64,000 nt of DNA from Verrucomicrobiales bacterium. GTDB taxonomy: Bacteria; Verrucomicrobiota; Verrucomicrobiia; Verrucomicrobiales; DEV007. Below are positions 30,349 to 43,289 of the stretch, piece after piece. Positions within the stretch are counted from its first letter, which is position 1. Every line of letters begins with the position of its first letter. Position numbers and translations under genes: made by a program. The notes under the pieces were generated by a model. That model was not told where the DNA came from. It worked only from the letters and a program-made list of their open reading frames with translations, and did not search any database. Where the stretch lies: positions 124,001 through 188,000 of the forward strand of contig PAAG01000060.1 in assembly GCA_002698785.1 (NCBI GenBank), given 5' to 3'.

Positions 30349-31227
30349 ATGAAGGGCAAATCCAGCGTGCTGCTGGGAGGGGTTGCTATCTTCGTGATCT
30401 CGATTTTGCTTTCACACTCCGGCTTCGGAGAAGAGGGGGCGCCGGACATTTCTCTGGAGGCTTCTCAGTTCGCCCTGCTCGAATCGATTCCTGACGAACA
30501 CCCCGTGTTTGTTATGACCCTCCTCCAGTTTGATCGCGAGGAAGGCATTGCGTCATGTCGCGACTTTGTAGACCTCACCGTCCCTCATCTCCGACAACTT
30601 GGTGGTGAACTTATCTTTTACGGCGAAGCTCAGCGTTTTGATATTGAGGACCAGGGTGCTCACGAAATTTTCGGATTCCGCCCGAATCCGTGGGATGCGC
30701 TTTTGGTCACGCGTTTCCCCTCGCGAAGAGATGTTCGAGCTTTTTGTGAAAAGGAAGAGTATCAAGCGGCTGTTGATAGTCTTCAGGCGAGCGTGAAAGA
30801 TGCCGTTGTCTACGCCCTCAATGGGACCGGATACAAAAACATCCGCAGAAGTTCTGCCGAGACATTCGGCCCGCCCGATTTTCCTGCAGAGGACACTCTC
30901 TACATGCTGAACCTTCTTCATTTCAAGCATGAGGGAGGCCACGAAGACTACGTCGAAAATTACGGTAAGAAAGCCATGCCTCTGATTCGAAAGAGGGGAG
31001 GCGACATACTCTTCGGGCTTCATCCCGAACAGCTTCTCATTGGGGAGGAGGAATACGAGCGCGTGATCCTGGTTCGATACCCCTCTTCAGATGTGTTCGC
31101 CGAGATGATGCTCAGCGACGAGTATCAGGCCGTGGCGCACTTTCGCGAGGAGGCCATCGACATCGGGCATCTCTACGGTTTCAGCAATGCGTTTGAGGAG
31201 TTGAAGCTTGGTGAATGGAAGGAGTAG
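30349..31227 (+). CDS. Exported tandem DUF1330-like (dimeric alpha-beta barrel) protein
   Basis: ATG 30349 gives a signal segment (SSVLLGGVAIFVISILLSHSG) and a 292-residue protein; an upstream GTG would add 20 residues. Two copies of a ferredoxin-like alpha-beta unit follow, each with the DUF1330 pattern: WDALLVTRFPSRRDVRAF and EEYQAA in the first, RVILVRYPSSDVFAEM and DEYQAVAHFREEA in the second. Small stand-alone DUF1330 proteins are usually cytoplasmic single units, so an exported pair is unusual. Function unknown. The end overlaps a long reading of the sulfatase frame but not its likely start. Confidence 0.72.
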   Translation: MKGKSSVLLGGVAIFVISILLSHSGFGEEGAPDISLEASQFALLESIPDEHPVFVMTLLQFDREEGIASCRDFVDLTVPHLRQLGGELIFYGEAQRFDIEDQGAHEIFGFRPNPWDALLVTRFPSRRDVRAFCEKEEYQAAVDSLQASVKDAVVYALNGTGYKNIRRSSAETFGPPDFPAEDTLYMLNLLHFKHEGGHEDYVENYGKKAMPLIRKRGGDILFGLHPEQLLIGEEEYERVILVRYPSSDVFAEMMLSDEYQAVAHFREEAIDIGHLYGFSNAFEELKLGEWKE

Positions 31228-31328
31228 GGACTCGCTTCTGTTTTCTTCTTTTAAATCTCACACGAAAAGTTCTCCCGTGCATACGCTCCGCAAATTCCTT
31301 GAGCGTGTGGCGGTTTTCGGCCCAGAAT

Positions 31329-32834
31329 ATGGGCATGGTAAAACCCTTTCTCCAGATTGCAGTTTTCGCATTTGCCTTTGTCGCAGTAGTGGCCACCGCC
31401 CAAGACAAGCGCCCGAACATCCTTTTCATTATTGCGGACGACCAGTCTCCGTTTGATCTGCAGGTCTACAATGATCGCTCCATTCTTGAAACGCCCGTCA
31501 TTTCAAAGCTGGCAGAAGACGGAATGGTCTTTGATGGGGCCTACCAGATGGGCTCTTGGACAGGTGGCGTCTGCACGGCTTCACGAAGGATGATCATGTC
31601 AGGGCGCACGCTCTGGCACACACCAGATAAGCCGAAGCGCAAACCGATGAATCCGAATCAGGGAAATGACGCTCTCGTCCCGCCGGACCTCGTCGACTAC
31701 ACCATGCCGGTTGTTTTTAACAAAGCTGGATACAAGACCGTTCGGACCTGTAAGAAAGGCAACAGCTACGACGAAGCGAATCTGCTCTTTTCCATCGTGA
31801 ATGAAGCGACAAAGCGTGGTGGAACTCCAGAGACGGGCAGCCCTTGGCACGCCGAGCAGGTGCTCGAATACCTGAAGAATCGCGAGCAGGCGAAAGAAGA
31901 AGAGCCTTTCCTCATCTACTACGGCTTTTCTCATCCACATGACGAACGAGACGGCACACCGGAGTTGCTCGCCAAATACGGTTCTACCAACCACACTGAC
32001 AAGACATCTCTCCCGCCTGCGAACGATAATCAGCCGCCTCTGCCGATCAACTACCTGCCGGAACATCCTTTCCATCATGGTCACCCCGACCTTCGTGACG
32101 AGGTCGCTGTCAGTGGTGTGTGGGAGCGCCGCGACGAGCAGACCATGCGCAACGAGCTAGGCCGGCAGTTTGCCTGTAGCGAATACATCGATCAGCAGAT
32201 CGGTCGCGTTCTCGAAAAGCTCGAAGCCATGGGAGAACTGGAAAACACTTACATCTTCTACACGGCCGACCATGGTATGGCCATCGGACGTCACGGACTC
32301 CAAGGGAAGCAGAATCTCTACGAGCACACCTGGCGTGTCCCTTTTATTGTGAAAGGCCCTGGCATCAAACCCGGTTCTCGCGTGCAGGGAAATATCTACT
32401 TGTTAGACACCCTCGCTACCATGTGTGACATCGCGGGAATTCCTTCACCCAAGACCAACGAGGGTATCAGTTACAAGCCCGTTTTGATGGGCGAAAAAGA
32501 CTCCATCCGCGATGTCATGTATGGCGCTTACAGCGGGGGCACTAAGCCGGGAATGCGCAGCGTGAAGAAGGGCGATTGGAAGCTCATCAAGTACGATGTG
32601 CTCGATGGCAAAGTCCGCGAGACCCAACTTTTCAACCTCGCCGAAAACCCGAATGAATTTCTGGAACAGCATCGCGAGGGAGACGCGGCGCACATGACTG
32701 GTTTTAAACCTGAAGAGAATCAAAAAGATCTCGCCGAGAGTCCAGAATACGCCGAGCAACTCGCCGAAATGGAATCCCTTTTGAAAAAGGAAATGCAACG
32801 CCTCGACGATCCCTACACTCTCTGGGATCAGTAG
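31329..32834 (+). CDS. Secreted type I sulfatase-like protein with CTASR active-site motif
   Basis: The start at 31329 (or 31335) makes a signal peptide (FLQIAVFAFAFVAVVATAQ). The alkaline-phosphatase-fold sulfatase core follows: RPNILFIIADDQ with the metal-binding aspartates, GGVCTASRRMIMSGRTLWH as the formylglycine region, and TYIFYTADHGMAIGRHG with the second metal site. The normal motif is C-x-P-x-R; here Ala replaces Pro, which some sulfatases tolerate. It likely removes sulfate from a polysaccharide or sugar in the periplasm. About 80 bases separate it from the dimethylformamidase-like gene. Confidence 0.87.
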   Translation: MGMVKPFLQIAVFAFAFVAVVATAQDKRPNILFIIADDQSPFDLQVYNDRSILETPVISKLAEDGMVFDGAYQMGSWTGGVCTASRRMIMSGRTLWHTPDKPKRKPMNPNQGNDALVPPDLVDYTMPVVFNKAGYKTVRTCKKGNSYDEANLLFSIVNEATKRGGTPETGSPWHAEQVLEYLKNREQAKEEEPFLIYYGFSHPHDERDGTPELLAKYGSTNHTDKTSLPPANDNQPPLPINYLPEHPFHHGHPDLRDEVAVSGVWERRDEQTMRNELGRQFACSEYIDQQIGRVLEKLEAMGELENTYIFYTADHGMAIGRHGLQGKQNLYEHTWRVPFIVKGPGIKPGSRVQGNIYLLDTLATMCDIAGIPSPKTNEGISYKPVLMGEKDSIRDVMYGAYSGGTKPGMRSVKKGDWKLIKYDVLDGKVRETQLFNLAENPNEFLEQHREGDAAHMTGFKPEENQKDLAESPEYAEQLAEMESLLKKEMQRLDDPYTLWDQ

Positions 32835-32913
32835 GGCCACAACATCTTCCCGCCATTGTAGAAGCGAGCGTGAGCGAGCATCATCGAAGCCTATCGGACC
32901 GATTCTAGAATAA

Positions 32914-34428
32914 ATGCCCACTCGCAGAAAATTCCTCGAAACTGGCGCTGCAATCCCTGCGATGGCGTCCGCAACTTCGAGCCTTTCTGCGCAGGGTGGC
33001 GGTCCGGATCTCATCAATTCGGAGAATGCCAAACCCGGAGCCCTCGATTGGCAACTCACTCGGGTTCGTCTCGATGCTCGCGATGGTTTCCGCGCCCCCG
33101 ATGTCGAGGGTTACTGCTCGAAGCAATCCGTGGCCGCGGGGGAGTCGCTCGACATTTTCATCAGCACCAAGCGAGAGGCCGAAGTCACCTTGGAGATCTT
33201 CCGCACTGGGTATTACGAGGGCAGGGGGGCACGCCTCATGCAGACCATTGAGGGCCTTCCCGGTAAGCCGCAACCCGTTCCGGAATTGCAACGCGGCGAC
33301 CGTCATCTCGTCGAGTGCCAGTGGGAAAAGGCGACTACGATCACGATTCCGGACGACTGGATCAGCGGAGTTTACCTGGGGCGCCTAACCGTTCCGGATG
33401 AAACCGGTCACGGCTACTGGCAGAGCTACATCGTCTTCATCGTAAAGGACGATCGCCCGGCCGATATTTGCCTGCAATGTTCCGACAACACGTGGCAGGC
33501 CTACAATCGCTGGCCTACGAAATACTCCGTCTACACCCATCCAAAGGGCAACCAGGGGCCTTGGGCCGATGTCTCATTTGATCGTCCCTACGCGAAATAC
33601 GCGCAGATTTACGAGAATCCTCAGTCGATCGGTTCTGGTGAGTGGCTCTGTTTCGAGTTTCCGATGGGATACTGGCTGGAGAAAGAGGGCTACGACGTCA
33701 CCTACTGCTCCAACTCGGACATGATCGATCCGGAATACGCTCGGCCGGATCGCTTCAAAGCATTCCTCAGCAACGGCCACGACGAATACTGGGACATTCG
33801 GGAATATGAGAATGTCGTGAAACTCCGCGACACCGGCACGAACCTGCTTTTCTTCTCCGGAAATTCTGTGTGTTGGGTAACACCGATGACTCCCTCCACG
33901 GATGGGCGTGAAAATCGCATCATGTTTCGCGGTGGGCCCTACGGTGGCGACTACAAATACGCGACTGCCCGGGAAAGAGACGAGGGACCATTTCCACATC
34001 GAGGACCTGACGAAGGCTACCTCATGGGCTCCAGAAACGTCGACCCTGTCAATGGTGGCGGCGACTGGATCTGCCAGATGCCCGATCATTGGATTTTCGA
34101 GGGAACGGGCATGAAAAAGGGGGATTCCATCCCCGGCTTGATTGGATGGGAATACCACGGCGATCCTCCGAAGGATATCGAGGGGCTGGAGGTGGTGGCT
34201 TCAGGCACTGCCATACAGGGGGGCGTAAACCCTCAGAGCTGGACTGCCACCATTTATCCAGGGCCCAAAGGCAACTTCGTTTTCAATGCATCCACCATTT
34301 TCTGGTGTCAGGGACTCGCTTCTCCACCCGGTCATATGCTCCCATGGTCCCACTGGTCACGGCCTCATGGGCCGGATGAGAGGGTTCAGAAAATCACCGC
34401 AAACCTATTAAATCGCGCCATCGGGTAG
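32914..34428 (+). CDS. Tat-exported N,N-dimethylformamidase large-subunit-like protein
   Basis: The 504-residue protein opens with a twin-arginine leader (TRRKFLETGAAIPAMASA). The rest matches the pattern I know for the C-terminal part of the dimethylformamidase beta subunit family, including the words TGYYEGRGARLM, SDNTWQAYNRW and LSNGHDEYWDIREYENV, where Tyr/His/Glu residues of the mononuclear iron site lie. The lectin-like N-terminal region of the true enzyme is missing and no alpha subunit is adjacent. Related proteins in sugar-degradation clusters have no assigned substrate. A role in carbohydrate use is inferred from the sulfatase next door. Confidence 0.72.
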   Translation: MPTRRKFLETGAAIPAMASATSSLSAQGGGPDLINSENAKPGALDWQLTRVRLDARDGFRAPDVEGYCSKQSVAAGESLDIFISTKREAEVTLEIFRTGYYEGRGARLMQTIEGLPGKPQPVPELQRGDRHLVECQWEKATTITIPDDWISGVYLGRLTVPDETGHGYWQSYIVFIVKDDRPADICLQCSDNTWQAYNRWPTKYSVYTHPKGNQGPWADVSFDRPYAKYAQIYENPQSIGSGEWLCFEFPMGYWLEKEGYDVTYCSNSDMIDPEYARPDRFKAFLSNGHDEYWDIREYENVVKLRDTGTNLLFFSGNSVCWVTPMTPSTDGRENRIMFRGGPYGGDYKYATARERDEGPFPHRGPDEGYLMGSRNVDPVNGGGDWICQMPDHWIFEGTGMKKGDSIPGLIGWEYHGDPPKDIEGLEVVASGTAIQGGVNPQSWTATIYPGPKGNFVFNASTIFWCQGLASPPGHMLPWSHWSRPHGPDERVQKITANLLNRAIG

Positions 34429-34502
34429 ACATTTCTGCAATTCTTGGGTTGAGTATCGGTTCTGATTTCAATACGTTACCCCCGCTGAGAGAGGCGCGAA
34501 GA

Positions 34503-35168
34503 ATGTCGACGCCAATAGAAGAAAAAAGTGTGCTCGTTGTCGACGATCACCCCATTATCCGTGAAGGGATTGCATCCTTACTGCAATCCGATCCGTCGAT
34601 CCGTGTCTGTTGCCAAGTAGGAACTGCTGCTGCGGCCGCAGATTGTATTGAGCGACGGCAGCCGAAACTGGTGGTGACCGACGTGTCGTTGCCCGATCGG
34701 AATGGGATCGAGTTGATTCGCGATACACTGGCCCGATTTCCCAACATTCTCTTTCTCGTCGTGTCTATGCATGACGAAACGCTCTACGCCGAACGGGTCC
34801 TCCGGGCTGGTGCCAAGGGCTACATCATGAAGGAAGCTGCCTCCGATGAGTTGATGGATGCCGTGAAGACAGTGATGGAAGGGGACCTTTATGTGAGTCC
34901 GCAGATGGCCTCCATTTTATTGAAGCGTCTGTCGGGTGACAGAAAAGAAGAGCGCTCCAGCGAGTCTTCTATTCTCCAGGTTCTCAGTGACCGGGAACTA
35001 CAGGTGTTCGAGCTGGTCGGGCGAGCGCTCTCAAATCAAGCTATTGCAGACAAGCTTGGGATCAGTGCTCGAACGGTTGATGCGCATAAGACGCGCATTA
35101 AAGAAAAGCTGAACCTTCCTGATAACAACGCACTGCTGCGTTTCGCTGTTCAGTGGCTGGAAAGTTGA
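34503..35168 (+). CDS. NarL/LuxR-type two-component response regulator
   Basis: ATG 34503 (221 residues) follows a purine-rich GAGAGAGG and is preferred to an upstream TTG. The receiver domain has VVDDH with acidic D14/D15, phospho-acceptor D60 (VVTDVSLPD), the switch Ser in VVSMHDE and Lys in GAKGYIMKEA. A GerE-type helix-turn-helix closes it (LSDRELQVFELVGRALSNQAIADKLGISARTVDAHK). The kinase at 36538 has the HisKA_3 fold that pairs with this class, so it is the likely partner. Its DNA targets may be the three dyads at 36057, 36270 and 36512. Confidence 0.92.
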   Translation: MSTPIEEKSVLVVDDHPIIREGIASLLQSDPSIRVCCQVGTAAAAADCIERRQPKLVVTDVSLPDRNGIELIRDTLARFPNILFLVVSMHDETLYAERVLRAGAKGYIMKEAASDELMDAVKTVMEGDLYVSPQMASILLKRLSGDRKEERSSESSILQVLSDRELQVFELVGRALSNQAIADKLGISARTVDAHKTRIKEKLNLPDNNALLRFAVQWLES

Positions 35169-35824: not shown

Positions 35825-35914
35825 TTCGAGTTTGCGATGGCTGCCTCTCTTGGGAGAGATCTCGACCGCGGTCGGGGGTTAACAAAGAGCTGGGCTTTTT
35901 TCGGGGAGAGGGGG

Positions 35915-35954
35915 AAGAGAAGCTCGCTTCCCGGGTTGAAGAGGGAAGCGAGCT
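35915..35954 (-). terminator. Terminator hairpin of small RNA C
   Basis: On the minus strand AGCTCGCTTCCC and GGGAAGCGAGCT form a perfect 12-bp stem with a 10-base loop. The following bases TCTCTTCCCC are pyrimidine-rich but hold few T's, so termination may leak into the gene at 35824. Confidence 0.6.
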
Positions 35955-35998
35955 ACACTCACGGTCGAAGGAGGAGGAAAAAGTTTTCTTCCGTGAAC
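35915..35998 (-). ncRNA. Predicted small RNA C (third of three tandem anti-SD RNAs)
   Basis: An 84-nt minus-strand transcript is predicted. Its start G at 35998 lies 7 bases after the -10 box TACTCT (36005-36010, with TG one base before it). A 5' hairpin GTTCACGG/CCGTGAGT (with two wobbles at the base) encloses a loop containing CTTTTTCCTCCTCCTTCG, which includes CCUCCUU, identical to the 16S rRNA anti-SD core. A perfect 12-bp terminator stem follows at 35921-35954 but only a poor T run (TCTCTTCC). Same architecture as copies at 36129 and 36373. Expression and targets are inferred. Confidence 0.68.
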
Positions 35999-36004
35999 AG
36001 GAAT

Positions 36005-36071
36005 AGAGTAGCACTGTCGCTATTTTTGAAAATTGGGAGGGTTTCCAATCATGTCCTACGGATTTCCCCTA
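36005..36071 (-). promoter_or_regulatory. Promoter and operator of small RNA C
   Basis: Minus strand: a 15-bp imperfect dyad TAGGGGAAATCCGTA at 36057-36071, a conserved CTCCCAATTTTCAA block, and an extended -10 TGCTACTCT ending at 36005. The dyad centre (36064) is 66 bases from the predicted start. A further palindrome GTGACAGACCTGTCAC lies just beyond at 36076-36091. Confidence 0.6.
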
Positions 36072-36075
36072 CAAT

Positions 36076-36091
36076 GTGACAGACCTGTCAC
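36076..36091. promoter_or_regulatory. Second palindrome upstream of small RNA C
   Basis: GTGACAG-AC-CTGTCAC is a perfect 7-bp-arm inverted repeat found only before copy C, 78-93 bases upstream of its predicted start. It could be an extra regulator site. A loosely similar GTGAC...GTCAC dyad sits at 54857-54873 before the primase gene. Confidence 0.4.
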
Positions 36092-36128
36092 GAGGACGAA
36101 TGATGAAGCTCGTCACAAGGGGCATCAC

Positions 36129-36167
36129 AAAAAAAAGCTCGCTTCCCCGGTTAGGGAGAAGCGAGCT
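36129..36167 (-). terminator. Terminator hairpin of small RNA B
   Basis: On the minus strand a 13-bp stem (one U-G pair) is closed by a short TAACC-type loop and runs straight into TTTTTTTT. This is the clearest intrinsic terminator in the window. Confidence 0.85.
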
Positions 36168-36211
36168 GAATTCACGTTAGAGAGAGAGGAGGAAAAAATT
36201 CTATCGTGAAC
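36129..36211 (-). ncRNA. Predicted small RNA B (second of three tandem anti-SD RNAs)
   Basis: An 83-nt minus-strand transcript is predicted from G 36211, 7 bases after the -10 box TACTCT (36218-36223). The 5' stem GTTCACGATAGA/TCTAACGTGAAT has one A-A mismatch and one G-U pair; the 18-nt loop is pyrimidine only apart from its first base and contains TTTTTTCCTCCTCTC. The terminator stem AGCTCGCTTCTCC/GGGGAAGCGAGCT (13 bp, one wobble) is followed by eight T's, an excellent intrinsic terminator, which fixes the strand. Confidence 0.75.
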
Positions 36212-36217
36212 GGGAAT

Positions 36218-36284
36218 AGAGTAGCACTCGGGGAATAATTGAAAATTGAGAGCTTTTCGCATCGAGTACTAGGGGATTTCCGTA
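36218..36284 (-). promoter_or_regulatory. Promoter and operator of small RNA B
   Basis: Minus strand: imperfect dyad TACGGAAATCCCCTA at 36270-36284, conserved CTCTCAATTTTCAA block, extended -10 TGCTACTCT. The dyad centre (36277) is again 66 bases from the predicted start G at 36211. Confidence 0.65.
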
Positions 36285-36372
36285 CAAGCGAGTGAATTTG
36301 AGAATGAGCGCCTTTCAGGAGATTCGGGAAGAGGTCAGGCCATCGTGAGACCAGAAATTTTCCTGAGTGTAC

Positions 36373-36411
36373 AAAAAGAAGCTCGCTCCCCCCTCATGGA
36401 GAGAAGCGAGC
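36373..36411 (-). terminator. Terminator hairpin of small RNA A
   Basis: On the minus strand a 13-bp stem with loop CATGA is followed by TTCTTTTTG. The outer seven pairs (GCTCGCT/AGCGAGC) are shared by all three copies; the inner pairs are kept by wobbles. Confidence 0.8.
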
Positions 36412-36455
36412 AATGTTCACGGCAGAAGGAGGGCTGGAGAGGCTCTGCCGCGAAC
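36373..36455 (-). ncRNA. Predicted small RNA A (first of three tandem anti-SD RNAs)
   Basis: An 83-nt minus-strand transcript is predicted from G 36455, 7 bases after the -10 box TATTCT. Its 5' stem GTTCGCGGCAGA/TCTGCCGTGAAC is 12 bp with one G-U pair; the loop contains CCAGCCCTCCT and, with the stem edge, CCTCCTT, identical to the 16S anti-SD core. The terminator stem GCTCGCTTCTCTC/GGGGGGAGCGAGC (13 bp, three wobbles) is followed by TTCTTTTT. Stem sequences differ from B and C while pairing is kept, which supports an RNA function. Confidence 0.75.
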
Positions 36456-36461
36456 AGGTTT

Positions 36462-36530
36462 AGAATACAGTTTCGCTGAGAATTGAAAATCGGGAGGTTT
36501 GCGTATCGCATTGTACGGAAATTCCGTACA
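36462..36530 (-). promoter_or_regulatory. Promoter and perfect 19-bp operator of small RNA A
   Basis: TGTACGGAATTTCCGTACA (36512-36530, minus strand) is a perfect palindrome with 9-bp arms, 7 bases beyond the stop codon of the kinase gene. Its centre (36521) is 66 bases before the predicted start. CTCCCGATTTTCAA and the -10 TGTATTCT follow. The palindrome resembles the GacA box TGTAAG-N6-CTTACA in form, as expected for a NarL/LuxR regulator. Confidence 0.7.
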
Positions 36531-39500: not shown

Positions 39501-41049
39501 TTACATTTTCTTTCTCATTTTCAAATGCCAATGGGGCATGCCTGAATCCGCTCTCTGATTCGCGTACGAAAAGGCCCGCCGAAGTTCCTATCCATATCGA
39601 GCCTTCGTTATCGAATGCGATTTGACTAACACGACCAGTATCGAGTGATTCTTTGGAGAAGGACATGTCCGGTGCCACGCGAAGCAATCCATCGTCCTGA
39701 CCGATCCAGAACCCTCCTTCACTTTTGTCTGCCAGGATGGGGATAGGAATGTGTTTGCTCGACCAGCTTAGCGAGACGCCCTGTTCGGGTCCGTATTCGG
39801 TAAGTTCATCGAAATTTCGAATCAGACTTACTCGCCCTTGCTCGGCGAGACAGACAGCTCCGGTTTCGCTATCGATCGCGATGCCCATGTATCCCGAAGA
39901 TCCCGAAATGGGGCGCCACGGGAAAGAGTGAACTGTGTTGTTAGACATGTGGGTCACGCCGGAAAGACCAGAGATCCAGATGCCTCCCTCCGGATCTTCA
40001 GCAATGCCCGTTCCCGGATTAGAAAAGAACCCCTGGGTGACTCCGTAGGAGTAAAATTCGTCCCGGTTGATCGGTGGCGGAGCGATCAGTGAAGTGGAGT
40101 TCCATTCTATTTTCGAGACTGTGGGTGTGCTCGATCTCAGGATGATCGATTCTTGCGTGGATTTGCCAGATACCACTTTTGTGTTGCGCCCCTGGGTTTC
40201 GTCGATGTCCCACGAGGGAACGAGGAAATGGCTGCCTGTGGGGAGAATGTGCTCGGTGAGAGGCTCGAGGGTCAACCGAGCCGTCCTGGCACCAGACGCA
40301 CCGTCCAGATACAGGTCGAGTAATGGGCTGATATCGGGGTGGGGAAGATCTGACAAGGTAAAGTGAAACGTGCCTGTGGAAAATTCAGACGAAGCGAGGA
40401 TGATGTCGCCGAGGCTGGATTTGATGTCGTGGTGTTTTTGTCTGCGTCCCCACGAAATGAAGGAGTATTCACCCTTTCGGTCGGTGTCTCGGTAAATAAG
40501 TCCGAGTCCGACGATAGGGTTCTCGAGCCCGTTGAGATTGTATCCAGGTGTTTCGGATAGCGGAATTCGCCACTCGTATGCGCGCGTCCGCGCCTCTTCA
40601 TTGGTGAGAGCCGCCACCCTCATCTCGGGACCGGGAAAGGCACTGTCGGGGTCTCTCACGGTGAGGGGTATTTCTGATGCCTCGGGGAATGAAACACGCA
40701 ACGCTGGTGCGTCGCTACGGTCGTGCCTGACATCCAGGTACAGAGTCCCGTGGTCGGCCCGACTCAAAACGTCGTCTTGAATTTCGATTGCGAGAAAAAG
40801 CACATTGTTGCTTTGATTCCACATCGCGCGAAACTCGGCTGTGAAATCTCCCTCTTCCGAATTGTCGTCTTCGTAATGCTCGATGCGCTGAACGGAGATT
40901 TCCGTGGGCCAGTCATCGAATTTACCATCGATCTTTACAGGTCGGTCGTGGTGCGTTGCTATGCCCACAACGCCGTTGTCTGCCAGGACACAGGTAGTTG
41001 AAAGGCTGAGTGCTAGAGCCAGGAAAAGAATACGCCAATAACGTCCCAT
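36538..41049 (-). CDS. Sensor histidine kinase with CBM9-like domain, beta-propeller and HisKA_3
   Basis: ATG 41049 (1503 residues) is preferred since it gives a signal peptide (RILFLALALSLSTTCVLA); the frame is open 65 codons further. Order: CBM9-like domain (VKIDGKFDDWPTEI, about 30-220), a propeller of two-component-regulator repeats (words such as DNEGSIWIGTSAGLF, DSSGKIWVGTRREI), a Y_Y_Y-type domain (HMAYRYKLDGGSWEY), one membrane helix (LITFALLVAGVIGFLQII), a GAF-like region, HisKA_3 with H1291 (RIARELHDQLGG), and the ATPase with N about 1405 and DNGKG. It probably senses a periplasmic carbohydrate or derivative and phosphorylates the NarL-type regulator at 34503. Behind the hybrid kinase by 44 bases on the same strand. 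Confidence 0.92.
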   Translation of the reverse strand: MGRYWRILFLALALSLSTTCVLADNGVVGIATHHDRPVKIDGKFDDWPTEISVQRIEHYEDDNSEEGDFTAEFRAMWNQSNNVLFLAIEIQDDVLSRADHGTLYLDVRHDRSDAPALRVSFPEASEIPLTVRDPDSAFPGPEMRVAALTNEEARTRAYEWRIPLSETPGYNLNGLENPIVGLGLIYRDTDRKGEYSFISWGRRQKHHDIKSSLGDIILASSEFSTGTFHFTLSDLPHPDISPLLDLYLDGASGARTARLTLEPLTEHILPTGSHFLVPSWDIDETQGRNTKVVSGKSTQESIILRSSTPTVSKIEWNSTSLIAPPPINRDEFYSYGVTQGFFSNPGTGIAEDPEGGIWISGLSGVTHMSNNTVHSFPWRPISGSSGYMGIAIDSETGAVCLAEQGRVSLIRNFDELTEYGPEQGVSLSWSSKHIPIPILADKSEGGFWIGQDDGLLRVAPDMSFSKESLDTGRVSQIAFDNEGSIWIGTSAGLFVRESESGFRHAPLAFENEKENVTALAFDPDDSIWIGTSGAPDVTDGQLLKVDRDTLEVLEVSTDALPPFRKITHLSCDVDASGRKLLHVGISESRWFYRFLIEEKTDGSLSLRELASAFEAGTIKDTLLDRYGVLWLVGRERVLASSPVQPYDPFFPENLDSRYAVNDFTVRKDTGALWCATSRGVLVTSPTPRVYNQESGLFTNMVNTILEDSSGKIWVGTRREIAYLDGDRFRPVDDTQGPKIREICCLEEGVDGAIWAGAATGLVRIDKNGEKEFFLRKRPITFLLCAKDGSVFLVENKQDIFRLHEGEIKRLEGFNAETVTCLAEDGDGRIWAGGYGSAPAVFNGDRFIAPPEPDLGPPVSAFSVDSITFGEKGNRWMGHKDGIFVTDGQIWQQAFGFRDRAAEVKKIVFTSENEAFLLAGIDVFRYEINPTPPSLSYANSLGGDPNPSVITALNTQESLPVQFRSQTSRALPGHMAYRYKLDGGSWEYTRSQMAVIPTPNVGTHTFLVEAIDPDLKHSEALEIPVRIRPDHSSTLITFALLVAGVIGFLQIIRLIRTRGEKERKQKELEDTVSRRTAQIATANKELGKRQAVSGVLSKISARLISLNPASIGMELEDILGEVAVAIEAQRAHIYLAQQNGDLNDPEFHVDLAYEWYDEGVGPMSKEMHRIYPHKFPWVKENYFRGEPSIVLNPDELPDYAAPEKALFKKMKWTSIGVVPMFVENELVGSFGFSTYANPLSWSAVLVDELRIAGEIFANALERMNQSKALHELRQDALDAEERERTRIARELHDQLGGALTGLKMHSRSLQNQLLEGSANPKQVELAERISEIIDDTLPDMRRICAELRPAILDDLELPQALKWQVDQFEKHTNIPCSLEVSTEDFPEQEMNRDVAIYRITQELLTNVIRHSEADRVNITLERKNDALLLRVSDNGKGIKMKELAKMKDKFGLRGIRERAEHLGGSISIIDTDGKGCTVEATIPIGSVQLLNQAGLPLRPEQFSI

Positions 41050-41093: not shown

Positions 41094-43289
41094 TCAAGGG
41101 CGGGAACTGGCGCTTTGCTCCGATGATCTGCGTGCTGGCAGTGAATGCAAAAGTTCTCGGAGCTGATCCGGATTCACCGGTTTCACGAGATGCCGATCGA
41201 ACCCGGCTTCGTCGGATTTCTGCATGTCGCTCTCTCTTCCCCAACCACTGATAGCGACCAGGTGGATCTCATCTCCGCCTTCCATCGCGCGTATGCGACG
41301 GGCTGCTTCGTGACCGTCCATGTTGGGCATGCCTATGTCCATTAGGACGATGTTAGGGTGAAAGTTGTGAGCTGCTTCGACCGCTTCAACGCCATCACTG
41401 GCCACCTCGACTTCGTAACCTTCCATCTCAAAGATCATCTGCATCGCGAAAGTCGCTGTTTCGTTATCATCCGCGATCAGAATCTTCCGATCTCGCGGTG
41501 GCTCGAACGAAAGTTTCGCCTGCACGGTTGCAGGTGGTTCGCTGGCGCGAAGGCTTCGCTGCTCTGGTGACTGGCTGAGAAGGGGGAATCGCACTGTGAA
41601 AGTACTACCCTTGTCTGTTCCCTCGCTCTCGACTGATATCGTTCCCTGGTGAATCTCGACCAATGATCGAACCAGGGTCAGGCCGATACCCAGACCGTTG
41701 GAAACGTCATTCCCTCGATGCATGAACTGTTCGAACATGGAGAAAATCTGTTCCTGCCTGTCGGGAGGAATGCCGTATCCGTTGTCCCGCACCGTGACTA
41801 CGGCATGGTCTTTTTCCGTAGTAACTTCGAGTGAAATCTTGCCGTTACCTTTTGGGGTGTATTTGGCGGCGTTGTTCAGGAGGTTTGAGAAGATCTGGGT
41901 GAGCCGATGGGGATCACCGAATATCATGACCTTTTCCTGATCGTCCGGCAGCTTAAGTTCGAAGTGATGGTTCGCCGCCTTGATGAACGGCATACTTGCA
42001 TCCACTGCATTTCGAAGTTCGATGATGAGATCGAGTTCTTCGAGTCGCACGTTGACCTTGCCCCTCGTGATACGGGAGACATCGAGCAGATCGTCTATCA
42101 AACGTACCATCTGCTCTGTCTGGCGAACCATCATCGCCATGGTCTCTTCGGTTCTGGCTGGATCGTCTTTGGCGAGTTTCAGCACTTCCAGTCCCGATCG
42201 GATTGGAGCCAGGGGATTGCGGAGCTCGTGGGCGAGAGAGGCGAGAAACTCGTCTTTTCTCCGGTCGCCTTCTTTCAATTCCTGGTTGCGAAGTGCCTCG
42301 TCTTCGAAGGCTCGGGCCCGGAAAATCGCTGAAGACACGGCTCCACGGAGCATCTCGAGAAAGCTGGCATAGTCTTCGTCGTAAGGGCGCAACGGATTCA
42401 AAGCAGCAACCAAGACTCCACAGATTTCTTTTGTTCCCGTTCCACCAAGCGGAATCAATGCGACCTGGGTAGGTGGTGTATTCCAATCTCCCGTGGGGAA
42501 TGAGCTGTCGTCGACTTCTTCAATGATGATTTCACTTCCGTCACCAACCTTGTCGAATGGCCATACGCTACTTTCTGAAAAGCGTGCTTCGGGCAGGGCG
42601 GTCGGGTGTGCAGGGTCGATGGCGACCGTCTGCTTGAGAATTAGTTTTCCCGTATCCTCTGCATCAATTCCGTAGAGAAGGCCAAATGGAATATCGAGTG
42701 TGTTCGTTTGCAGGGCATTGCGGACATCCACGCAGACCTCCTCCCGGGTCATAGCACCCTTGGTGCAATCGAAGATCTCCTGTATGAGCTTGTGGCGACG
42801 GTTCATCACGACCCGCTTCGTGGCATCTTTCGCGATCCCGAGAATGCCACGGATAGTCTCCGATGAATCTATGATGGGAGTGTGAGAATAGGAGTAATAC
42901 GTTTCTTCAGGGTATCCGTATCGGTTCAGGATAAAGAGGCGATCCTCTTCCTTGCGTCCCTGTTCGGTTGTCCGAATTTCGTCAACCATCGGGGCAACGT
43001 CATCCCAGACTTCTCTCCATACTTCCGATGCAGGTTGTAGGAGGCAGTTCGGGTGTTTCTCACCGACGAGTGGAATATACGCGTCGTTATAAAAATGAAT
43101 CAGATCGTCGCCCCACCAGATGAACATGCCCTGTGGAGAGTGCAGGAGCAGGTGGACGGTCGTTTTCAGCGCATCGGGCCAGTCCTGCGGAGGTCCCAGT
43201 GGATGGGTAGCCCAATCCAAAGCCTGCAGGCTTTGTGCGATCTCTCCGTCGCCTTGGAGAAATGTTGGAATGGTGGTCAGATCCGACAT
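41094..43289 (-). CDS. Hybrid histidine kinase: PAS, GAF, HisKA, ATPase, receiver
   Basis: The 731-residue protein has no membrane segment. A PAS-like region (WGDDLIHFYNDAYIPLVG) comes first, then a GAF-like region, HisKA with H354 (SLAHELRNPLAPI), the ATPase (FSNLLNNAAKYTP, VRDNGYGIP, GLGIGLTLVRSL), and a C-terminal receiver with phospho-acceptor D651 (VLMDIGMPNMDG) and Lys in HLVKPVNP. It is the first gene of the pair with the large membrane kinase, so the two may share output. The mRNA just before its ATG reads CACCTCCTT, an anti-SD word where an SD would be expected. Confidence 0.92.
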   Translation of the reverse strand: MSDLTTIPTFLQGDGEIAQSLQALDWATHPLGPPQDWPDALKTTVHLLLHSPQGMFIWWGDDLIHFYNDAYIPLVGEKHPNCLLQPASEVWREVWDDVAPMVDEIRTTEQGRKEEDRLFILNRYGYPEETYYSYSHTPIIDSSETIRGILGIAKDATKRVVMNRRHKLIQEIFDCTKGAMTREEVCVDVRNALQTNTLDIPFGLLYGIDAEDTGKLILKQTVAIDPAHPTALPEARFSESSVWPFDKVGDGSEIIIEEVDDSSFPTGDWNTPPTQVALIPLGGTGTKEICGVLVAALNPLRPYDEDYASFLEMLRGAVSSAIFRARAFEDEALRNQELKEGDRRKDEFLASLAHELRNPLAPIRSGLEVLKLAKDDPARTEETMAMMVRQTEQMVRLIDDLLDVSRITRGKVNVRLEELDLIIELRNAVDASMPFIKAANHHFELKLPDDQEKVMIFGDPHRLTQIFSNLLNNAAKYTPKGNGKISLEVTTEKDHAVVTVRDNGYGIPPDRQEQIFSMFEQFMHRGNDVSNGLGIGLTLVRSLVEIHQGTISVESEGTDKGSTFTVRFPLLSQSPEQRSLRASEPPATVQAKLSFEPPRDRKILIADDNETATFAMQMIFEMEGYEVEVASDGVEAVEAAHNFHPNIVLMDIGMPNMDGHEAARRIRAMEGGDEIHLVAISGWGRESDMQKSDEAGFDRHLVKPVNPDQLRELLHSLPARRSSEQSASSRP

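Follow-up and report, generated by a model that had tools for sequence, protein, structure and literature searches.

Sequence features suggest an undescribed small RNA family run by a neighbouring two-component sensor system

Organization of the locus

The 64,000-nucleotide stretch of Verrucomicrobiales DNA analysed here (the window) carries three tandem units on its minus strand, each predicted to specify a small RNA, between the genes of a sensor histidine kinase and a response regulator. The kinase, P0002 (36538..41049, minus strand; 41049 is a chosen ATG in an ORF open from 41244), combines a CBM9-like domain and a Reg_prop propeller with HisKA_3 and HATPase_c domains. The regulator, P0001 (34503..35168, plus strand), is of the NarL/LuxR type, with a receiver and a GerE domain; its ORF opens at 34449, and the ATG at 34503 was chosen by orthologue comparison. 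Against the NCBIfam GacA model (NF007018) P0001 scored 115.8 bits, with a cut-off of 280, which places it outside the UvrY/SirA/GacA family. Directly upstream of P0002 lies the gene of a hybrid kinase with HisKA, HATPase_c and receiver domains (41094-43289, minus strand); the two ORFs overlap as called and do not overlap if P0002 starts at 41049. Sulfatase and DMFA2_C-domain genes (31215-34428, plus strand) are found directly upstream of P0001. Given these adjoining sulfatase genes and the CBM9-like domain of the kinase, the signal that the kinase senses may concern polysaccharides.

The initial annotation had described three minus-strand units, each comprising a palindromic operator, a -10 box, a 5' hairpin with a pyrimidine loop and a terminator hairpin, and all of these elements were located where it had placed them. 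In unit A, the operator (36514..36528, minus strand, TACGGAATTTCCGTA), centred at -66, is followed by a -35-like ATTTTC (36485..36490, at -35..-30), the -10 box TATTCT (36462..36467) and predicted small RNA A (36371..36455), which consists of a 5' hairpin (36415-36455) with the loop CCUCUCCAGCCCUCC (36428-36442), a terminator hairpin (36381-36411) and a U-rich tail. Unit B, on the same strand, comprises the operator TACGGAAATCCCCTA (36270..36284), the ATTTTC element (36241..36246), the -10 box TACTCT (36218..36223) and predicted small RNA B (36128..36211), with its 5' hairpin (36170-36211), loop AUUUUUUCCUCCUCUCUC (36182-36199), terminator hairpin (36136-36167) and U tail. The corresponding minus-strand parts of unit C are the operator TAGGGGAAATCCGTA (36057..36071), ATTTTC (36028..36033), TACTCT (36005..36010) and predicted small RNA C (35913..35998), with a 5' hairpin (35957-35998), the loop AACUUUUUCCUCCUCC (35970-35985) and a terminator hairpin (35921-35954). 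As had been claimed, the operator centres at 36521, 36277 and 36064 lie 66 bp from the predicted starts at 36455, 36211 and 35998, and the -10 boxes occupy -12..-7. The loop words were likewise as described, with CCTCCTT in A, where it extends into the stem, CCTCCT in B and CCTCCTCC in C, and the stem sequence GCTCGCTT is common to all three terminators. Over approximately 195 nt including the promoter, the mean column identity of units A-C is 77%. A plus-strand reading, in which the complement shows AGGAGG loops, was considered and rejected, since the -10 boxes and U-rich tails are found on the minus strand.

Downstream of unit C on the same strand lies the gene of an unannotated 181-aa protein, P0003 (35279..35824, minus strand), for which Pfam and NCBIfam gave no match at E 0.001. 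An AlphaFold2 model based on three sequences (mean pLDDT 78.4) has an alpha/beta fold with five main strands. A Foldseek search returned a flavodoxin as the best match (TM about 0.5) and many flavodoxins among the 50 matches listed; the receptor entries among these are presumably flavodoxin fusions. The fold of P0003 is predicted to be flavodoxin/receiver-like, and P0003 is a possible regulator-like partner.

Conservation of the RNA units and of gene order

A covariance-model search of Verrucomicrobiota genomes, as proposed in the initial annotation, was carried out with a model (R1) built from units A-C. In the genome of origin the three copies scored 93-97 bits and the next match 25.4 bits. 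Nothing convincing was found elsewhere: the best score was 27.7 bits among 55 further relatives and 34.5 bits among another 386 genomes from the phylum sample, a set that partly overlaps those 55. The units that are known in relatives (see below) scored 24.6 and 16.8 bits in genus g209 and 9.2 bits in genome G510; R1 is hence too narrow for its negative results to show absence. Of 28 candidate loci in other genomes, 15 were aligned, and the ten best alignments match chiefly the terminator, with part of helix 1 also aligning in L007, L029 and L031. In one distant genome of the phylum, R1 matched two hairpins (L032:1501-1597) in which most of helix 1 pairs but the loop is not C-rich; these may simply be two terminators.

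Searches with the flanking proteins, by contrast with R1, did identify units in other genera. Homologues of P0003 were detected in 2 of the 287 other genomes of the order sample (E 1e-5), G535 and G467, both of genus g209; in the family, 3 of 74 genomes carry P0003 when the genome of origin is included. A search with a regulator alignment matched 142 of 386 genomes at E 1e-60 and yielded G510, of genus g212. The whole kinase used as query found no relative, with matches elsewhere confined to the kinase domain and none at E 1e-60. Each of these three genomes, from two other genera of the family, has one RNA unit beside orthologues of the kinase and the regulator. P0001 is 69-72% identical to its g209 orthologues, and the C-terminal part of P0002 shares 49-52% identity with the g209 kinases. 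Both g209 genomes have the order seen in the window, that is, kinase, RNA unit, P0003-like gene (L043:7771-8301 and L044:7415-7954) and convergent regulator. The order in G510 is kinase, one RNA unit and convergent regulator, without P0003 in between; the regulator ends right at the second hairpin of the unit, which is followed by no gene. Since G510 has the kinase, the RNA and the regulator without P0003, the module as read from these genomes consists of those three components, with P0003 optional, and is present in the window genome with three RNA copies.

Operator and promoter conservation

Anchored on the operator, the six units from four genomes, which represent three lineages only (three paralogues, two units of one genus and one further unit), align without gaps, and A-11, T-7, A-6, C+3 and a TTT at -34..-32 are invariant in all six. 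The predicted start sites, which remain predictions, fit this alignment across genera. Mean identity between genera drops from 75.8% within the operator to 20.3% immediately upstream, and amounts to 43.5% at -58..-13, 37.9% at -12..-7 and 45.5% at +1..+12; the -10 boxes of the units outside the window (GAAGGT, GAACGT and GAGGAT) retain only A-11 and T-7. In the window, TACGGAAATTCCGTA with at most three mismatches occurs eight times versus 1.13 expected, a number reached in none of 100 shuffles, and five of these eight matches fall at the three operators.

A matrix built from the six operators was used to score other sequences. In the 779 kb scanned of the genome of origin (11%; contigs C3, C22 and C23), the RNA operators scored 22.5, 22.1 and 19.1 and were the only sites above 15.0, the score of the next-best site; at a score of at least 13 there were 11 further sites, compared with 6-12 in shuffled sequence. 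When the whole genome was searched for TACGGAAATTYCGTA, allowing one mismatch, unit A and one other place were returned; this search is narrow enough to miss units B and C. Among related regulator loci outside the matrix, a palindrome scoring at least 12 was present in 11 of 26 (12 of 27 counting G510), some of the 11 being near-identical loci of one genus; three shuffles gave 0.022, 0 and 0.044 sites per kb at this threshold, or about 0-4 in the whole set. Fifteen of the 26 loci were viewed in context and 11 had a site, eight scoring at least 12 and three scoring 6-10, in every case no more than about 125 nt 3' of the regulator gene and ahead of a gene in the same direction. These 11 loci, each with the 15-bp palindrome, are L055, L056, L059, L060, L062, L066, L067, L068, L076, L078 and L079. 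Of the other loci viewed, L057, L065 and L077 were without a palindrome site, and the sequence of L075 ends at the gene. The gene that follows the palindrome in L055 is of the AraC type; it was the one downstream gene tested, the others being judged by eye. The same layout, with the site 3' of the regulator, was seen in 7 of 12 paralogous loci (L081, L084, L087, L088, L092, L094 and L095); L091 and L093 instead have their best site upstream of the regulator. Across the order, the NarL/LuxR-type regulator and the downstream gene in the same direction are a conserved regulator pair of their own.

Since similar palindromes stand beside related regulators, the palindrome is probably the binding site of P0001, and it tends, in the loci compared, to travel with this regulator line. 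Its occurrence beside related regulators suggests that the RNA genes adopted it later. G446 (L080:4855-5641) has the operator TAGGGAAATTCCCTA ahead of a structured leader (z -2.4) and of an ORF that is weakly P0003-like (hhalign probability versus P0003, 56%) and converges with the regulator gene; this arrangement is perhaps the state before the RNA arose. The proposal of the initial annotation that the multi-copy RNA genes are under the neighbouring two-component system is supported by comparative evidence of three kinds, namely the module in four genomes, the conserved spacing of operator and promoter, and the operators of related regulators.

Folding and conserved pairing

RNAs A, B and C are each predicted to fold into two hairpins (z-scores -5.2, -6.2 and -4.7), and none of the 200 dinucleotide shuffles made for each was as stable. 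The units of G535, G467 and G510 gave fold z-scores of -5.0, -4.7 and -5.5. The initial annotation had stated that pairing is kept despite changes in the stems, a claim for which the evidence comes from the other genera rather than from the three copies of the window. In A-C alone, one pair has changed on both sides against a shuffle mean of 0.7 (282 of 500 shuffles reached as high a count), and at 4 of the 13 positions of hairpin 1 one copy lacks pairing. Because this is no better than chance, relatives were sought in other genomes. With the six units of the four genomes, 65 of 74 cells in hairpin 1 are paired and double changes occur at 10 of 13 positions, on arms that were anchored by hand, which favours the structure; when the register was slid by 1-2 positions, 30-41% of cells were paired and 0-4 positions were double-changed. 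An earlier count on alignment A8 (16 of 25 pairs double-changed) was dropped in favour of the hand-anchored arms, because two of its seven rows were reverse-strand terminator matches, and the MAFFT alignment A7, in which the 3' arm is out of register, was not used. Relative to the predicted start, the hairpin begins at +1 in A-C, +2 in g209 and -1 in G510. The second hairpin has no U tract in G535 and a weak one in G510.

Loop motifs, Shine-Dalgarno signal and candidate targets

UUCCYCC is found in the loops of five of the six units, and unit A has GCCCUCC. An exact CCUCC is present in A, B, C and G510, with UUCCCCC in its place in both g209 units, and GGA is absent from all six loops. The initial annotation had proposed that these loops block mRNAs led by a Shine-Dalgarno (SD) sequence in general, a proposal that the genome itself does not bear out. 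Among 539 crude gene calls from the 779 kb, SD 4-mers (GGAG, GAGG, AGGA) occur at -18..-4 of the first ATG in 10.2%, compared with 12.2% in a control window. Run in the same way, the script gave 47.1% versus 3.9% for E. coli K-12 (51 genes), 13.7% versus 13.0% for the loci of family relatives (161 genes) and 12.5% versus 6.2% for the g209 loci (16 genes). GGAGG alone is found at -18..-4 in 2.2% of genes in the genome of origin (control 0.7%) and, at -40..+20, in 5.2%, which is not commoner than in two other windows (6.7% and 8.9%). A 2024 survey describes some Verrucomicrobia, including Akkermansia, as SD-scarce with a conserved CCUCC (PMC10783764). No match to Hfq or CsrA was obtained in the genome of origin, which is 95.9% complete; the same searches found Hfq in 5 and CsrA in 3 of 14 control genomes. 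The scarce SD signal, the lack of Hfq and CsrA matches and the UUCCCCC of the g209 loops together argue for RNAs that act on selected targets rather than for a general block of SD-led genes.

At the regulator start (34484..34505, plus strand, GCUGAGAGAGGCGCGAAGAAUG) lies a candidate site, by prediction only, for pairing with loops A and B: loop A could pair with GCUG(A)GAGAGGC, and loop B with GAGAGAGG plus AAGAA. This lead was picked after three module genes and three loops had been viewed. Among the 539 start regions, that of the regulator ranked 10th for loop A and 5th for B, in the top 2% for both, 49th for C and 7th on the sum, which leaves 4 to 48 other genes ahead of it for single loops and 6 on the sum. 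When the loop ends were set differently and the interval scanned was wider, as in an earlier run, the regulator came 7th for B and fell outside the eight best listed for A and C. The G510 loop GGUUCCUCC could likewise pair with GGAGG(U)AACC, ahead of that genome's regulator start. Of 500 target shuffles, 1 (A), 0 (B), 18 (C), 144 (G535), 27 (G467) and 40 (G510) were as strong, and of 500 loop shuffles 97, 3, 125, 224, 61 and 151, respectively. The regulator of the same genome was the best of four regulators for four of the six loops (A, B, G467 and G510); for loops C (by 0.1 kcal/mol) and G535, the regulator of another genome pairs as well or better. The regulator's own mRNA as a target is a lead rather than an established result, and one that is weak in the other genomes.

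Proposed mechanism and alternative explanations

Taken together, these comparisons suggest an undescribed small RNA family run by the neighbouring two-component sensor system. Each of the three tandem genes would have its own promoter and terminator. Kinase P0002 and regulator P0001 would switch them on, with P0001 binding directly to the palindrome at -66 of each, and the transcripts would be RNAs of about 84 nt with two hairpins, probably independent of Hfq. Their exposed C-rich, UUCCYCC-like loop would pair in trans with G-rich sequence close to the start of selected mRNAs, and a plausible first target would be the regulator's own mRNA, which would result in negative feedback. To this explanation as a whole, regulator-activated RNAs whose loops pair with selected mRNA starts, we assign a probability of roughly 65%. 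Judged from sequence, it is very probable that these are real, regulator-driven RNA genes; action by loop pairing is favoured with less assurance, and feedback on the regulator is a tentative, somewhat doubtful component. More speculative still is a broader reading, in which an undescribed Verrucomicrobiota RNA family serves a two-component system that acts almost wholly through small RNAs, in view of the 779 kb sampled showing strong sites at the three RNA promoters only. The RNAs would then work without Hfq or CsrA in a cell where SD sequences are scarcely used, their loops would feed back on the regulator mRNA, and the site would have been taken over from an older arrangement, one with an AraC-type gene driven by the same regulator line.

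Alternatively, the operator and promoter could serve a P0003 transcript, with the hairpin and terminator as a 5' attenuator and units A and B as duplicated leaders. In three of the four genomes (the genome of origin, G535 and G467) the unit is followed by a P0003-like gene, and the weakly P0003-like ORF of G446 has an operator upstream but no two-hairpin unit that is visible; however, the G510 unit runs into the convergent regulator with no gene after it, and A and B each terminate before the next promoter. We consider this explanation unlikely for the units in general, although in the three genomes the RNA unit may serve in part as a P0003 leader. CrcZ and RsmZ titrate RNA-binding proteins, and the C-rich loops might do the same without any mRNA pairing: several similar copies, strong hairpins, a dedicated two-component system and a short loop motif shared by five of six loops would all suit such a sponge, whereas the genome returned neither CsrA nor Hfq and the loops are without GGA. 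A CsrA sponge was rejected because no CsrA was found and the loops have no GGA; a binder of C-rich RNA is a possible target, and titration overall is rated as quite improbable. A general block of SD-led mRNAs would agree with the CCUCC of all three window loops and G510, with weak Rfam matches, below threshold, to RF02278 and ar14 and with the slight enrichment of GGAGG at -18..-4, but not with the SD 4-mers, unenriched in 539 genes, with the frequency of GGAGG at -40..+20 or with the UUCCCCC of the two g209 units, and is very unlikely. A decaying, non-functional repeat, for which the tandem paralogy of the copies and the lack of a clear R1 homologue in the relatives and phylum samples might be cited, is hardly credible given that relatives in other genera keep the hairpin pairing, with covariation, and a gap-free promoter spacing.

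Should regulator-activated RNAs with pairing loops indeed be encoded here, they would provide a defined RNA family, promoter and controller in a genome in which Hfq and CsrA were not found and SD sequences are hardly used, and would permit a direct test of trans-acting RNAs without the usual chaperone and the usual target site. The locus also suggests how the site of a regulator can be transferred from control of a protein gene to that of RNA genes, with tandem amplification afterwards. A full-text literature search, thin on subscription journals, found by title no two-component-controlled small RNA in Verrucomicrobiota.

Comparison with known systems

At the gathering cut-offs of Rfam 15, no match was obtained in the window, and loci L043, L044 and L099 yielded only two tRNAs, none over the units. 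The best match of the Betaproteobacteria toxic small RNA family RF02278 was to unit B (28.4 bits, cut-off 50); both have a C-rich stretch and a terminator hairpin, and half of the first helix of the model is unpaired here. The ar14 family (RF02344) reached 25 bits, with a cut-off of 58.8. Alpha-r14 RNAs resemble the units in carrying anti-SD motifs (CCUCCUCCC) on variable stems, and are described as having three hairpins, each with the motif (PMC10746234; Rfam RF02344), whereas the units here have two hairpins and their longest such word is CCUCCUCC, in loop C. Unlike Hfq-dependent trans-acting small RNAs, the RNAs of the window belong to a genome in which Hfq was not found at 95.9% completeness.

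RsmY and RsmZ, under GacA, combine a NarL/LuxR-class regulator with an upstream palindrome and several redundant RNAs, and titrate CsrA/RsmA through GGA loops. The initial annotation had drawn this parallel, which applies to the promoter logic only, as no CsrA and no GGA loop were found here and P0001 scores far below the GacA cut-off. CrcZ, under CbrAB, is likewise a small RNA gene that adjoins two-component genes driving it, the arrangement proposed for the window; it is a longer RNA with CA-rich motifs titrating Hfq/Crc.

In the CiaRH csRNAs of Streptococcus, several similar RNAs with two stem-loops are under one response regulator, and an unpaired stretch complementary to translation starts is located between the stem-loops (PMC3091779). 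The RNAs described here are alike in being several and similar, in their two stem-loops and in their one putative regulator; they differ in that the putative pairing stretch lies in the apical loop of hairpin 1, the regulator is of the NarL/LuxR type with a HisKA_3 kinase, and the genes stand in tandem beside the kinase gene, in a different phylum and in a genome with hardly any SD signal. CiaR is an OmpR-type regulator that binds a direct repeat, in contrast to the GerE-domain regulator and inverted repeat of the window. The alphaproteobacterial NfeR1 is reported to be repressed by NtrC and to pair with the ntrB start region, which closes a feedback loop with the two-component system (PMC10746234). 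By the tests applied, the RNAs fall in no known family, and in working they most resemble the CiaRH csRNAs and NfeR1. With no match to Rfam or to GacA at the cut-offs, and closest in working to the CiaRH csRNAs, they are counted among the two-component-controlled small RNA sets, which are their nearest known kind.
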